Of a stretch of DNA of 34,866 nt, positions 17,777-21,848 are shown in pieces. Numbering within the stretch: position 1 is the stretch's first letter; each line of letters begins with the position of its first letter. Below the pieces are notes generated by a model that did not search any database, was not told the DNA's origin, and saw nothing but the letters and a program-made list of their open reading frames with translations. Both the position numbers and the translations under genes were made by a program. The DNA is from Clostridia bacterium (GTDB lineage Bacteria > Bacillota > Clostridia > Christensenellales > Aristaeellaceae). Location: positions 1 through 34,866 of the forward strand of contig JAUNDF010000013.1 of assembly GCA_030526225.1 (NCBI GenBank), written 5' to 3'.

Positions 17777-18484
17777 TTACTTCTTCAGCCGCTTGTCGCT
17801 CTTGATGGCGGCCCAGGTGCCGGCAGACTGGAAAATCTGGGTCAGGATGACCAGCACAATCACGGCCAGATACAGCACGGCGTAGCGGTAGCGCTGGTAG
17901 CCGATGGTGATGGCAATCTTGCCGATGCCGCCGCCGCCGATGGCACCGCTCATGGCGGTGTAGCCCATGATGGTGGTGATGGCCAGAGTGAAGTTGTTAA
18001 TCAGGGAAGGCACAGCCTCGGGGAGCATCACCTTCAGCAGAATCTGCATGGGGGTGGCGCCCATGGACTGGGCGGTTTCAATCAGGTTGGGGTTTACCTC
18101 GCGCAGGCTTGTTTCCACCAGACGGGCCACAAAGGGGAAGGCGGCCACCACCAGCGGAACCACGCTGGCCATGGTGCCCACGCTGGTGCCCACAATGGCG
18201 CGGGTCAGCGGGATGACCATGACAATCATAATCAGGAAGGGAACAGAGCGCAGCAGGTTAATCATCACGTTGAGGAACTTCATCAGCGGGGCGGGCAGGG
18301 GACGGATGCCGTCCTTTTCGCCGGCCACCAGAATCATGCCCAGGGGCAGGCCGATGACCATGGCGAATACCGTAGCCAGCACGGTGACATACAGGGTTTC
18401 CCACAGCGCACCGGGGAAGTCGTTAATCAGCATTTGCCAGGCTTCAGCCAGGCGTTCGGGGGTAAAACCGGATGCAAAATTCAT
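17777..18484 (-). CDS. metI: methionine ABC transporter permease MetI
   Basis: 235 residues, full length. It is the membrane channel of the MetNIQ methionine importer. Five hydrophobic segments are seen, with a long N-terminal one (ETLYVTVLATVFAMVIGLPLG). The EAA loop that contacts MetN is LIETAQSMGATPMQILLKVMLPEA near 130-153. The MetI-type ending GGGGIGKIAITIGYQRYRY is near 180-200. The ATG directly follows the metN stop with no gap, so the two are translated together. Confidence 0.93.
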   Translation of the reverse strand: MNFASGFTPERLAEAWQMLINDFPGALWETLYVTVLATVFAMVIGLPLGMILVAGEKDGIRPLPAPLMKFLNVMINLLRSVPFLIMIVMVIPLTRAIVGTSVGTMASVVPLVVAAFPFVARLVETSLREVNPNLIETAQSMGATPMQILLKVMLPEAVPSLINNFTLAITTIMGYTAMSGAIGGGGIGKIAITIGYQRYRYAVLYLAVIVLVILTQIFQSAGTWAAIKSDKRLKK

Positions 18485-19522
18485 TTACTCGGCCTCCTTC
18501 CGCTGCTTGGTGTAGCTGCTTTCCACCGATACGGAAAGCTCGGGCTCTTCGTTGAGGTACTTGATGACCTTGGCCAGATCATCGGGGCCGCCGGGAACCT
18601 CCAGCAGCATGTAGCCGTACACCTTTTCACCAACGGCGCGGGTGGAGGCGGAAATAATGCTGGGGGCCACGCCCACCTCGTTGACCATGGTGGCAATCAG
18701 CGGCTTTCTGGCGGTGGAGGCGCCGTTGAAAATGATGCGGACCATCTGGCTGTTGTTCATATCCACGGTGAGGGCGGCGCTGTCAGCCATTTCGGGGTAA
18801 ATCAGGTTGCGGGTGGCGCGGGCCTTGGGGTGGCTGAAGATGGCAGAAACCTCGCCCTCTTCCACCACGGCACCGTTTTCCAGAATGGCCACGCGGTTGC
18901 AGACCTCCTGCACCACGCTCATCTGGTGGGTGATGATGATGATGGTGATGCCCAGCTTCTTGTTGATTTCCCGCAGCAGGGACAGGATGGCATGGGTGGT
19001 TTTGGGGTCCAGGGCAGAGGTGGCCTCGTCGCACAGCAGCACCTCGGGGTTGGTGGCCAGCGCACGGGCGATGGCGATGCGCTGCTGCTGGCCGCCGGAC
19101 AGCTGGGCCGGATAGGCATTGGCCTTGTCAGGCAGACCCACGGTCTCCAGCAGCTCCTTGGCGCGCTTTTCCGCCTCGGCCGTGGGCACGCCGGAAAGCT
19201 TCAGGGGCAGCATGATGTTCTTCAGGCAGGTGCGCTGCATCAGCAGGTTGAAGCCCTGGAAAATCATGGTCACCCGATGGCGGACCTCCCGCAGCTCCTT
19301 GCGGGACAGGGCGCCGATATCCACGCCGTCCAGAATTACCTGACCCTCGGTGGGGCGCTCGAGCATGTTGATGCAGCGGACCAGGGTGGATTTGCCGGCA
19401 CCGGACATGCCGATGATGCCGTATATATCGCCATTGTTAATGGTCAGATTCACCTGACGGAGGGCATCCACAGGGCCGTCAGCCGTGCGGAAGCTCTTGG
19501 ACAGGTTGCGAAGTTCGATCAT
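18485..19522 (-). CDS. metN: methionine ABC transporter ATP-binding protein MetN
   Basis: 345 residues. The ATPase domain has Walker A GMSGAGKST near 38, the Q-loop MIFQGFN near 85, the signature QLSGGQQQR near 140, Walker B LLCDEATSALD near 160 and the switch His in IIITHQMSVV. The C-terminal ~100 residues (about 250-340) form the NIL domain that binds methionine and inhibits transport when internal methionine is high (ARKPLIATMVNEVGVAPSIISAS). This makes MetN more certain than a generic amino acid ATPase. AGGAGG precedes the ATG. Its own promoter appears to overlap the terminator that follows metQ. Confidence 0.93.
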   Translation of the reverse strand: MIELRNLSKSFRTADGPVDALRQVNLTINNGDIYGIIGMSGAGKSTLVRCINMLERPTEGQVILDGVDIGALSRKELREVRHRVTMIFQGFNLLMQRTCLKNIMLPLKLSGVPTAEAEKRAKELLETVGLPDKANAYPAQLSGGQQQRIAIARALATNPEVLLCDEATSALDPKTTHAILSLLREINKKLGITIIIITHQMSVVQEVCNRVAILENGAVVEEGEVSAIFSHPKARATRNLIYPEMADSAALTVDMNNSQMVRIIFNGASTARKPLIATMVNEVGVAPSIISASTRAVGEKVYGYMLLEVPGGPDDLAKVIKYLNEEPELSVSVESSYTKQRKEAE

Positions 19523-19632: not shown

Positions 19633-20475
19633 TTACTTCACGGTCAGGGCGGTCAGGTCAGCCTGCTTGCCGCCGTACAGAGCCATGGGCTCCACGTGTA
19701 CGCCCAGCACGTTGACGATGTGGGTGCCGTTGTTGGCGTTGAAGTCATCCTGATAGGGGGTGTGAGCGAAGTAGTTGGCGAACAGGTCACCGGCTTCCAG
19801 AGCTTCGTTGGGCAGGATGTAGTCGGTGTACTCAACGATTTCCAGGGTGATGTCCTTGGCGGCCAGGATGTCCTTGACCACGGTCAGAATCAGCTCGTGG
19901 GGGTTGGGGGTAGCGCCAACCTTGATGGTGGTGCCGGCCAGAGCAGCGTAGTCAACGGTGGCATCGTAGCCGTCGCCGGGCTCGGCGATAACGGAAACAA
20001 CGGAGCCGTCAGCCCAGTTGGCAGCGATGTAATCGGCAACAGCCTGGCTGGACAGAGCAGCGATCAGAGCCTTGCAGGCATCGGTGTCCTGGTTGCCGTC
20101 CTTCACGGACAGAACGTTGGCATAGGGGGAATCAGCGGATTCCTTCAGCAGGGAGCCGTCAGCGGGGTTCAGGCCGGCATCCAGAGCGAAGTTGTTGTTG
20201 ATGATGGCATAGTCAACGTCAGCCAGCACGTTGGGAACCATGGCAGCTTCCACTTCGTGGAACTCCAGACCCAGGGGATTCTCGGCGATATCGGCGACGG
20301 TGGCGGTGATGCCGGCTTCTTCCTTCAGGGTGATGATGCCGTTGGCCTGCAGCAGCAGCAGAGCGCGGCCTTCGTTGGTGGCGTCATTGGGCAGGGCCAC
20401 GGTCACAGCCAGAGCGGAGGAAGCAAGGGACAGGGTCAGAACCAGAGCCAGGACTACAGACAGGAACTTTTTCAT
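19633..20475 (-). CDS. metQ: circularly permuted MetQ/NlpA-family methionine-binding protein
   Basis: 280 residues. Residues 1-23 are a signal peptide ending ALA, without a lipobox Cys. Residues 25-162 match the part that is normally the C-terminal half of MetQ: PNDATNEGRALLLL (29-42), AENPLGL (64-70), EVEAAMVP (74-81), SPYANV (116-121). Residues 184-280 match the normal N-terminal half: IKVGATPNPHELIL (184-197), TDYILPNEAL (217-226), ANYFAHTPY (233-241), VEPMALYGGK (261-270). A linker (about 163-183) joins the old end to the old start. All expected family motifs are present, only in swapped order, so ligand binding is probably kept. ATG 20475 has GGAGAG upstream. The gene heads the metQ-metN-metI unit. 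The loss of lipid anchoring and the permutation are both unusual. Confidence 0.88.
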   Translation of the reverse strand: MKKFLSVVLALVLTLSLASSALAVTVALPNDATNEGRALLLLQANGIITLKEEAGITATVADIAENPLGLEFHEVEAAMVPNVLADVDYAIINNNFALDAGLNPADGSLLKESADSPYANVLSVKDGNQDTDACKALIAALSSQAVADYIAANWADGSVVSVIAEPGDGYDATVDYAALAGTTIKVGATPNPHELILTVVKDILAAKDITLEIVEYTDYILPNEALEAGDLFANYFAHTPYQDDFNANNGTHIVNVLGVHVEPMALYGGKQADLTALTVK

Positions 20476-20624
20476 AGCAGATACTCTCCTTTTTTGTTAG
20501 CGGCTTGCGCTTTCATCGTGTGTCAGAAAAACGGGACAGGGGATAAAAAACGTCACATTCGTCTGCTCTCGGTGTTGGCGCGAATCCGCAGCCTGATTGA
20601 TATTGCCATGTTTGCAACCTACTT

Positions 20625-20660
20625 CAAAAAAATCGGGGAGCCTCTCGACGAGACTCCCCG
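20625..20660 (-). terminator. strong terminator between the leader peptide and metQ
   Basis: On the minus strand CGGGGAGTCTC pairs with GAGGCTCCCCG (11 bp, one G-U) around GTCGA, followed by ATTTTTTT. No convincing promoter is visible in the 150 bases between it and metQ, so transcription must pass it to reach metQ. Confidence 0.92.
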
Positions 20661-20664
20661 TATC

Positions 20665-20703
20665 CGGATGAGCCGATTTGCTTCAATCGGTTATGTTCAT
20701 CCG
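20665..20703 (-). promoter_or_regulatory. hairpin overlapping the leader peptide stop codon
   Basis: CGGATGA (containing the TGA stop) pairs with TCATCCG, and an inner CCGATT/AATCGG stem closes the structure. A ribosome at the stop codon would melt it; one held earlier in the ORF would not. It directly precedes the terminator hairpin. Confidence 0.6.
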
Positions 20704-20804
20704 TTTATCTGAAAGCCCATCGAAAAATCTGCACAGCGACGCATGCACATGCACAACAGCATGCACATCTCCATGGACATCATAGCGGTGAACTGATTCT
20801 TCAT
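20697..20804 (-). CDS. Met/Cys-rich 35-residue leader peptide upstream of metQNI
   Basis: The ORF starts at ATG 20804 with AGGAAAGGAG a few bases upstream and ends with TGA at 20699-20697. It contains 9 Met and 4 Cys in 35 residues, mostly packed in MMSMEMCMLLCMCM (8-21). It is transcribed from a near-consensus promoter and followed by two hairpins and then the methionine importer. This is the arrangement of a ribosome-sensed attenuator: slow decoding of Met (or Cys) codons would alter RNA folding and let transcription reach metQ. No mutually exclusive antiterminator was found by eye, so the mechanism is inferred. An alternative is a small metal-binding peptide (Met and Cys bind copper), expressed independently of metQ. 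Confidence 0.65.
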   Translation of the reverse strand: MKNQFTAMMSMEMCMLLCMCMRRCADFSMGFQING

Positions 20805-20841
20805 GGTGCTTTCTCCTTTCCTGATGAAGATTACGAGACTG

Positions 20842-20870
20842 ATGATAACAGCTTACCAAATCTTTGTCAA
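20842..20870 (-). promoter_or_regulatory. strong promoter of the leader peptide and metQ transcript
   Basis: Minus-strand TTGACA (20870-20865), a 17-base spacer and TATCAT (20847-20842). It is the best -35 box in the window. Confidence 0.88.
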
Positions 20871-20915
20871 TAAGGGCTATTGTTTTTTGAATGTTTTTCT
20901 GCCGGAAATCCCATG

Positions 20916-21848
20916 TCACTGCCCCAGTGCCTGCTGCAGCACGGCCATGTTTTCCCGCATGGCGGTTTCGTACTGACCCTTGGCATCAGCCGCACCCTCG
21001 GGGCCGGTGACCACGGGATCCAGCTGGTAGATGGGTGCGCCCGTTTCCTGAGAGATGGTCCGGGCGGCCATGTCGGCATACTGGGGCTCGGTGAACAGCG
21101 GCGGTGCGCCAAGGTCCACCACGGTCTTCACCAGCCGGGACAGCTGGGCGGGAGACAGTGCATCGCCGGGCTCCCGGTTGACCACGCCCACCACATTCAG
21201 GCCGTAGGCGTTGGCAAAATAGGGGAATGCCTCGTGGAAGGTGATGATGTCCTTCTTCGGCAGATTGTCAAGACCGGCGTGGAGGTCATCATCCAGCTGC
21301 TGCAGCTGTGCCAGATACCGGTCGCGGTTGGCTTCAAGGGCTTCGCGGTGCCGGGGCCATGCCTGACAAAGCCCCTCGCACAGGTTGGTGACCATAGCCT
21401 GTGCGTTTTTTACATCCAGCCACACATGGGCGTTGACCTCGCCGTGGTCATGGTCGTGGTCATCGTGATCGTCATGGCTGTGGTCACCCTCCAGCAGCTG
21501 GTTTTCCTCATCCAGCAGGGGGATGCCCTCGCTGGCCACCACCACCGGCAGATTGGGGAAGGCTTCGTACACATGGGCAAGGTAGCTTTCCATGCCCGCG
21601 CCGTTGACAAGGAACACATCGGCACCTGCAAGGGTCTTCATGTCGCCGGTCTGCAGCTGATAATCATGCAGACAGCCGGTGCCGGGAGCGGCAAGGTTGT
21701 ACAGCTCAATGCCCTCGATGCCGTCGGTCAGGTTGGCGGCAAAGACATAGATGGGATAAAAGGAAGTGACGGCAGTCTCTGCCATGGCCAGCAGGGGCAG
21801 GAAAAGCATGGCGCCCAAGAGCAGGATGGCGGCAATCAGTTTACGCAT
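20916..21848 (-). CDS. znuA: zinc/manganese-type ABC transporter substrate-binding protein (ZnuA-like)
   Basis: 310 residues. A signal peptide (1-23, LLAMA|E) lacks a lipobox. The fold is the TroA/ZnuA cluster with a rigid central helix: TSFYPIYVFAANLTDG near 27-42, CLHDYQLQTGDM near 59-70 (first metal His), NAHVWLDVKNA near 138-148 (second His), IITFHEAFPYFANAYGL near 200-216 (third His) and LFTEPQYAD near 250 (acidic ligand). A His/Asp-rich loop at about 121-134 (HSHDDHDDHDHDHG) precedes the second ligand, which points to zinc rather than manganese. No permease or ATPase for it lies in the window, so its partners are elsewhere. It follows an unknown gene by 33 bases and is probably co-transcribed with it. 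Confidence 0.88.
   Translation of the reverse strand: MRKLIAAILLLGAMLFLPLLAMAETAVTSFYPIYVFAANLTDGIEGIELYNLAAPGTGCLHDYQLQTGDMKTLAGADVFLVNGAGMESYLAHVYEAFPNLPVVVASEGIPLLDEENQLLEGDHSHDDHDDHDHDHGEVNAHVWLDVKNAQAMVTNLCEGLCQAWPRHREALEANRDRYLAQLQQLDDDLHAGLDNLPKKDIITFHEAFPYFANAYGLNVVGVVNREPGDALSPAQLSRLVKTVVDLGAPPLFTEPQYADMAARTISQETGAPIYQLDPVVTGPEGAADAKGQYETAMRENMAVLQQALGQ

Follow-up and report, generated by a model that had tools for sequence, protein, structure and literature searches.

The window analysed here, by which we mean the whole stretch of 34,866 nucleotides, comes from the draft genome of an uncultured gut member of the Clostridia (G000; 79.8% complete, 136 contigs) and carries on its minus strand a predicted methionine importer operon, metQNI. 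Reading along this strand, a promoter, a ribosome-binding site (RBS) with a 35-codon open reading frame (ORF), a hairpin over the stop codon of this ORF and a terminator precede the operon in that order. The features of the locus are as follows.

20916-21848, minus strand: gene upstream of the leader, encoding an AztC/ZnuA-like ABC protein that binds zinc/manganese and contains a His/Asp-rich stretch
20842-20870, minus strand: sigma-70-type promoter, TTGACA-17-TATCAT, agreeing with the consensus at 11 of 12 positions and with TG before the -10 box
20697-20804, minus strand: leader peptide ORF, MKNQFTAMMSMEMCMLLCMCMRRCADFSMGFQING, 35 codons with 9 Met (start included) and 4 Cys
20665-20703, minus strand: hairpin over the leader stop codon, found by folding
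20626-20660, minus strand: intrinsic terminator, consisting of a hairpin (20660-20634, -21.9 kcal/mol; the 3:4 hairpin below) and a U-tract
20553-20609, minus strand: second mini-ORF, MAISIRLRIRANTESRRM-stop, ending in CGA-ATG-TGA (20561-20553), with the core CGA-AUG-YG
19633-20475, minus strand: metQ, encoding a predicted, circularly permuted methionine-binding protein (from PDB 4k3f blocks, TIGR00363 and AlphaFold2)
18485-19522, minus strand: metN-like ABC ATPase gene, best match TIGR02314 MetN at 357 bits, below the equivalog cut-off of 499.7
17777-18484, minus strand: metI-like permease gene, best match NF008049 MetI at 193.5 bits, below the cut-off of 212

The circular permutation of MetQ places the canonical C-terminal part first (residues 24-159) and the N-terminal part second (residues 183-275). 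Against PDB 4k3f the two blocks are swapped, such that query residues 183-275 correspond to residues 4-96 of the chain and query residues 24-159 to residues 102-236, and the NCBIfam model TIGR00363 is matched as two stretches that score 158 bits, short of the 228.85 required. The AlphaFold2 model is confident (mean pLDDT 87.6), and Foldseek matched MetQ-like structures over about half of the chain each time, as a permutation predicts. Permuted MetQ proteins are common in Clostridia, and the ordinary domain order occurs in other genera of this family.

The promoter upstream of the leader has its -35 box (TTGACA) at 20870-20865 and its -10 box (TATCAT) at 20847-20842, separated by a spacer of 17 nt, and TTGACA/TAT--T-like motifs are found at the corresponding position in the leader alignment of relatives. 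The leader ORF is preceded by the RBS AAGGAG, which is conserved in relatives as well, and the terminator hairpin is directly followed on its 3' side by ATTTTTTT. Folding of the window leader gave a structure that beat 200 of 200 shuffled sequences (z -5.8). The first-pass annotation of this DNA had described a near-consensus promoter, a Met/Cys-rich ORF of this length and composition, a hairpin over its stop codon and a strong terminator ahead of metQ, and had seen neither another clear metQ promoter nor an S-box or T-box at the locus. Each of these descriptions was borne out, including the last two: the stretch 20620-20480, which separates the terminator from metQ, showed no promoter-like site, and Rfam searches gave no match to either RNA class at 20300-21000 up to an E-value of 10.

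S-box (SAM-I) riboswitches and T-boxes are the textbook regulators of methionine genes in Bacillota, whereas the metQ locus of the window has neither. For the S-box (RF00162) there was no match in the window, none at 20300-21000 at the relaxed E-value, and none in the draft genome; a SAM-I riboswitch of this organism may lie in the part of the genome that the draft lacks. For the T-box (RF00230) there was likewise no match at 20300-21000, even with E up to 10. Rfam searches at curated and relaxed thresholds (E up to 10) returned nothing relevant on the leader, nor did searches of 20 met loci and of a metQ paralogue, and a SAM riboswitch and a T-box at the leader were rejected on the lack of an Rfam match at the locus. 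T-boxes are present elsewhere in the window's genome and plentiful in the family (30 of 30 relatives searched), and an S-box was found somewhere in the genome of 54 of 80 relatives. Since both regulators occur elsewhere in relatives and neither at this locus, metQNI would use a different sensor.

We therefore turn to the leader ORF and its distribution. The search for MetQ orthologues first covered 80 relatives and was then extended to 308 genomes of this family, of which 115 contain an orthologue with the domain order of the window MetQ; the upstream regions of 94 of these 115, together with 80 named GTDB contigs, were inspected. In seven genera of the family (g1, the genus of the window, and g6, g8, g10, g24, g44 and g48), permuted metQ is preceded by ORFs that are rich in Met/Cys and have a good RBS. 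Such ORFs are present, too, in contigs assigned to Lachnospiraceae, Oscillospiraceae and Clostridiaceae, every one of them a metagenome assembly with a rough label. Across 45 distinct leader ORFs, Met accounts for 24.7% and Cys for 10.9% of codons, and ATG triplets fall into frames 0, +1 and +2 344, 11 and 5 times, respectively, but these ORFs were picked for their Met content, so the strand and shuffle controls are the fairer evidence. Under a rule demanding an RBS, a length of up to 40 amino acids, four or more Met and a combined Met and Cys count of six or more, 39 of the 94 regions upstream of permuted metQ have a leader on the coding strand. The reverse strand gave 0 of 94, and shuffled sequences gave 2 of 1,880; 415 kb of background sequence contained four such ORFs.

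A terminator lies 3' of the leader in 45 of 46 cases checked (34 of 35 in the family and 11 of 11 in other Clostridia). When 300 family genomes were searched with a profile of the leader peptide, strong matches were obtained solely before metQ, one per genome, with no confident match away from it; in the searches made, the Met-rich leader is linked exclusively to permuted metQ. It is scarcely credible, then, that a terminator of the upstream gene and a chance ORF merely lie side by side and regulate nothing. Terminator-like hairpins are indeed common in intergenic DNA, but here the promoter separates the ORF from the upstream gene, the arrangement recurs in many genomes with compensatory changes, and the reverse strand and shuffled sequences yield almost no such ORF. 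We also looked for relatives that keep the terminator and lack the peptide, and found no such pattern: the Met-rich ORF is absent at 15 loci of genera g9, g16, g18, g30 and g32, and only one of these has a terminator-like hairpin.

Composition also bears on which amino acid is sensed. Cysteine codons are frequent, ATG-TGY is a recurrent pair and a Cys cluster closes several of the leaders, which would be in keeping with an attenuator that senses cysteine, or methionine and cysteine equally, upstream of an importer that may carry another sulfur compound. However, Met codons outnumber Cys codons by more than two to one, one leader (L068) has six internal Met codons and no Cys, and the downstream genes are MetQ-, MetN- and MetI-like, such that we regard a cysteine signal of this kind as unlikely. 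The idea of a ribosome-sensed methionine or cysteine attenuator, put forward in the first-pass annotation, is supported by comparison for all of its structural parts and is here amended, with Met dominant and Cys secondary.

The switch itself appears to be built from the terminator and three stretches of the leader RNA, the third of which belongs to the terminator; they are listed here with their partners.

20793-20816, minus strand: region 1, GGAGAAAGCACCATGAAGAATCAG, comprising the leader RBS and start codons; partner of region 2 in the minimum free energy fold
20711-20723, minus strand: region 2, TCGATGGGCTTTC, the 3' end of the leader ORF, which can pair alternatively with region 1 or region 3
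20645-20660, minus strand: region 3, CGGGGAGTCTCGTCGA, the 5' arm and loop of the terminator, which pairs with region 2 (2:3)

When the full leader is folded, region 2 is paired with the RBS and start codon of the leader (1:2), and in the window this duplex has an energy of -25.5 kcal/mol (z -6.0). Folds without the 3' arm of the terminator, made for the first seven leaders, showed that the last part of the ORF is able to pair instead with the 5' arm and loop of the terminator (2:3), and in one of these leaders (L004) this pairing varies with the amount of ORF left free; once it has formed, the 2:3 helix encloses the hairpin over the stop codon. The 11 checked leaders from other Clostridia all gave a 2:3 fold, of 7-18 pairs. 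Tested leader by leader against shuffled sequences, duplex energies reached p<0.05 in 53% of cases for 1:2 and in 26% for 2:3, a weak test in part because the DNA is GC-rich, and pair counts from an alignment were therefore used. Among 21 aligned leaders, with pairing columns derived from folds of those same sequences, standard pairs make up 84% of 2:3 (47-55% at slid registers), 73% of 1:2 (38-49% slid) and 83% of 3:4 (50-63% slid), and 7 of the 17 pairs of 2:3 show double changes. An antiterminator pairing, which the first-pass annotation had been unable to find, is thus provided by 2:3, and folding together with covariation shows that 1:2, 2:3 and 3:4 are mutually exclusive, as in classical amino-acid attenuators.

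The alignment further indicates which parts of the leader are conserved as peptide and which as RNA. All insertions and deletions within the Met run have lengths divisible by three. For TTCGATGGGCTTTCAG, three readings occur: ..SMGFQ.. (L003, L005 and L069), ..LRWAFR-stop (L066, L075, L084 and L117) and ..FDGLS.. (L076); region 2 is thus read in three frames among relatives and is therefore conserved as RNA and not as peptide. MxM and CxC patterns can bind metal, and the gene upstream in the window encodes a zinc/manganese-binding protein, although we saw no sign that this gene (20916-21848) belongs to the attenuator. Nevertheless, it is very unlikely that the ORF encodes a functional small protein rich in Met and Cys, such as one that binds copper or zinc, and lies before metQ by chance, given that its C-terminal third switches frame between relatives, that it overlaps two competing pairings, that a terminator (in 45 of 46 checked leaders) and metQ always follow it and that its profile has no confident match elsewhere in the 300 family genomes. 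In another reading, a small molecule such as methionine or SAM would stall the ribosome by way of the nascent peptide sequence, and a shortage of charged tRNA would play no part. Arrest leaders of this type are known, for example TnaC (PMC3902921), and the nearby second ORF carries a peptide-level motif, NxESxRM. For the first leader we nonetheless hold such a mechanism to be highly improbable, because this leader keeps a Met/Cys composition and no fixed motif, and its C-terminus, the usual site of an arrest motif, is freely variable.

Taken together, the locus has a promoter with an RBS-bearing short ORF, conserved cognate control codons and an intrinsic terminator, as well as an antiterminator that, by folding and covariation, excludes the terminator and is freed by a stall at the control codons. 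On the basis of folding, conservation, covariation and the link to metQ, we believe that it is very probably a ribosome-mediated transcription attenuator which senses charged Met-tRNA and controls the importer operon metQNI; Cys-tRNA is probably sensed too, more weakly. With ample methionine, the first ribosome would reach the leader stop codon and cover region 2, allowing the terminator (3:4) to form and RNA polymerase to halt at about 20626. When Met-tRNA is scarce, the ribosome would stall within the Met/Cys run and leave region 2 free to form 2:3 with the 5' arm of the terminator while the 3' arm has still to be transcribed, leading to read-through into metQ. If the leader is not translated, or has been translated once, region 2 would shut the leader's own RBS (1:2) and leave the terminator free, and the default state would be off. 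We infer the stalling on Met codons, the response to methionine, the amount of read-through and the strength of termination.

Folding of the window leader with the ribosome-covered part masked is broadly consistent with this scheme. Without a ribosome, 1:2 forms, and with a ribosome at the stop codon there is no 2:3. With a stall at Met codon 8, 2:3 forms before the 3' arm is made (about 12 expected pairs), and the same holds for a stall at codons 15-21 if a second ribosome occupies the RBS. However, when the only ribosome is stalled at codons 13-15, 1:2 remains a competitor of 2:3, and an early stall or a trailing ribosome would therefore be needed. At equilibrium, 3:4 wins in the full leader in all ribosome states, and we therefore assume that the switch is kinetic. 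Attenuators of the leader-peptide type are generally held to decide kinetically.

Apparently independent versions of this control precede metQ paralogues. A second permuted metQ in the same genome (contig C43; L308 706-1918, minus strand), whose product is about 33% identical to the window MetQ, has a Met/Cys-rich leader, MKRTNFAAMAQMMMMREDMCMCMCLCSSCVCSRGR, with its own terminator; CACACG forms the basis of its 2:3 pairing, and the sequence of this leader is unrelated to that of the window. In genomes G007 and G005, too, each paralogous metQ has a Met/Cys leader of its own, followed by a terminator and capable of 2:3 pairing, with sequences that differ again. In addition, the C43 paralogue is preceded by an R-M mini-ORF, MKKRLPVRATDRM, ending in CGA-ATG-TGA, as the second mini-ORF of the window also does.

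This second mini-ORF, between the terminator and metQ, is itself conserved. The motif NxESxRM, searched as NxESxR-CGA-ATG-YG, was found in 21 of 300 family genomes, in every case within about 0.2 kb before permuted metQ, and the reversed pattern gave no match in the same 300 genomes; a stricter pattern ending in TGA recovers the window and G023 only, the 21 genomes coming from the looser form. Across 158 metQ upstream regions the octamer CGAATGYG occurs in 75, with 97 copies where about one is expected and one copy on the opposite strand. Arg codons before ATG-YG in these regions are CGA in 97 of 114 cases, while in eight genes of the window CGA is the rarest Arg codon, with 1 of 130. Repeated CGA-ATG copies within one leader stay in frame, and the conserved Ser of the mini-ORF is encoded by AGC, TCA or TCG, from which the peptide seems to be under selection, too. 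RNAalifold found no conserved structure in this second element. A search for two CGAATGYG copies in 291 genomes of the class gave mostly chance matches and no further convincing leader; the CGA-AUG element stands alone before permuted metQ in Oscillibacter (L233, L251).

We tentatively suggest that metQNI may be under two tandem leader ORFs, and that the CGA-AUG-YG mini-ORF (..NxESRRM-stop and variants) could serve as a methionine sensor in its own right, and a very sensitive one. In the Salmonella his leader, CGA is a slowly read codon (PMC4046918), which makes a slow CGA-AUG sensor plausible. With a slow CGA in the P-site, the arrival of Met-tRNA at the following AUG might become the rate-limiting step; alternatively, the RRM-stop nascent chain might stall termination. 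If either option is true, it would be an undescribed control element that is used alone in other Clostridia such as Oscillibacter. The nearly invariant rare Arg codon before AUG allows codon-pair slowness to be tested as a natural amino-acid sensor. In genera g11 and g26 the leader is often shorter and carries R-M motifs. Several loci of g26 and g11 (L151, L153, L157, L169, L011 and others) have one to three in-frame CGA-ATG pairs without a long Met run, and in L128, L157 and L169 a terminator follows; these leaders may represent the same control in a simpler form.

Similar to trpL, hisL, leuL and ilvL of Proteobacteria, the window leader combines a translated run of control codons with exclusive 1:2, 2:3 and 3:4 pairings and an intrinsic terminator before the operon. 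It differs from them in that the control amino acids are Met and Cys, that the operon encodes a transporter and the host belongs to the Clostridia, and that region 1 consists of the leader's own RBS and start codon, with the control codons in the 1-2 loop. Ribosome-sensed attenuation within the same phylum has been described for the His leader peptides before hisS and hisZ in bacilli (PMC2965389) and for the Leu-rich ilv leader of Staphylococcus aureus, where it is experimentally supported (PMC5794164). These leaders involve histidine or branched-chain amino acids and precede other genes, and the sections available of both papers describe no methionine leader. In Campylobacter jejuni, a 20-residue peptide with three Met codons, MetL, has been predicted before metBA; it is limited to C. 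jejuni, C. coli and C. doylei, and antitermination was proposed (PMC3847290). MetL is likewise encoded by a short Met-codon ORF before methionine genes, with an RNA that ends shortly past the stop codon, but those genes are biosynthetic and do not encode an importer, and an antiterminator pairing is not described in the accessible part of that report. In Actinobacteria, Cys-codon leader ORFs precede sulfur genes, without terminators having been found, and upstream of methionine operons that study found no conserved RNA structures (PMC1262725); runs of Cys codons are the shared feature, but those leaders contain Cys only. In the open-access literature the C. jejuni prediction is the only methionine leader peptide we found, and there was none for the group of the window.

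The first-pass annotation had called such an attenuator new or rare in this group. This holds for methionine and for the lineages described here and does not extend to leader peptides as such, since His and branched-chain leaders are known in Bacillota. The novelty lies in Met(/Cys) control codons, the Clostridia host, the importer, the use of the leader RBS as region 1 and the tandem mini-ORF. Several clades of gut Clostridia, whose relatives have SAM riboswitches and T-boxes, thus appear to sense methionine for their importer by means of the translating ribosome. With about 48 leaders, their terminators and, where checked, the antiterminator, this would be the best-documented methionine attenuator known to us, and an unannotated small ORF would become a readable switch. 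Apart from the leader, a terminator-like hairpin followed by a T run is present on the plus strand at 21377-21405, antisense inside the gene of the metal-binding protein.
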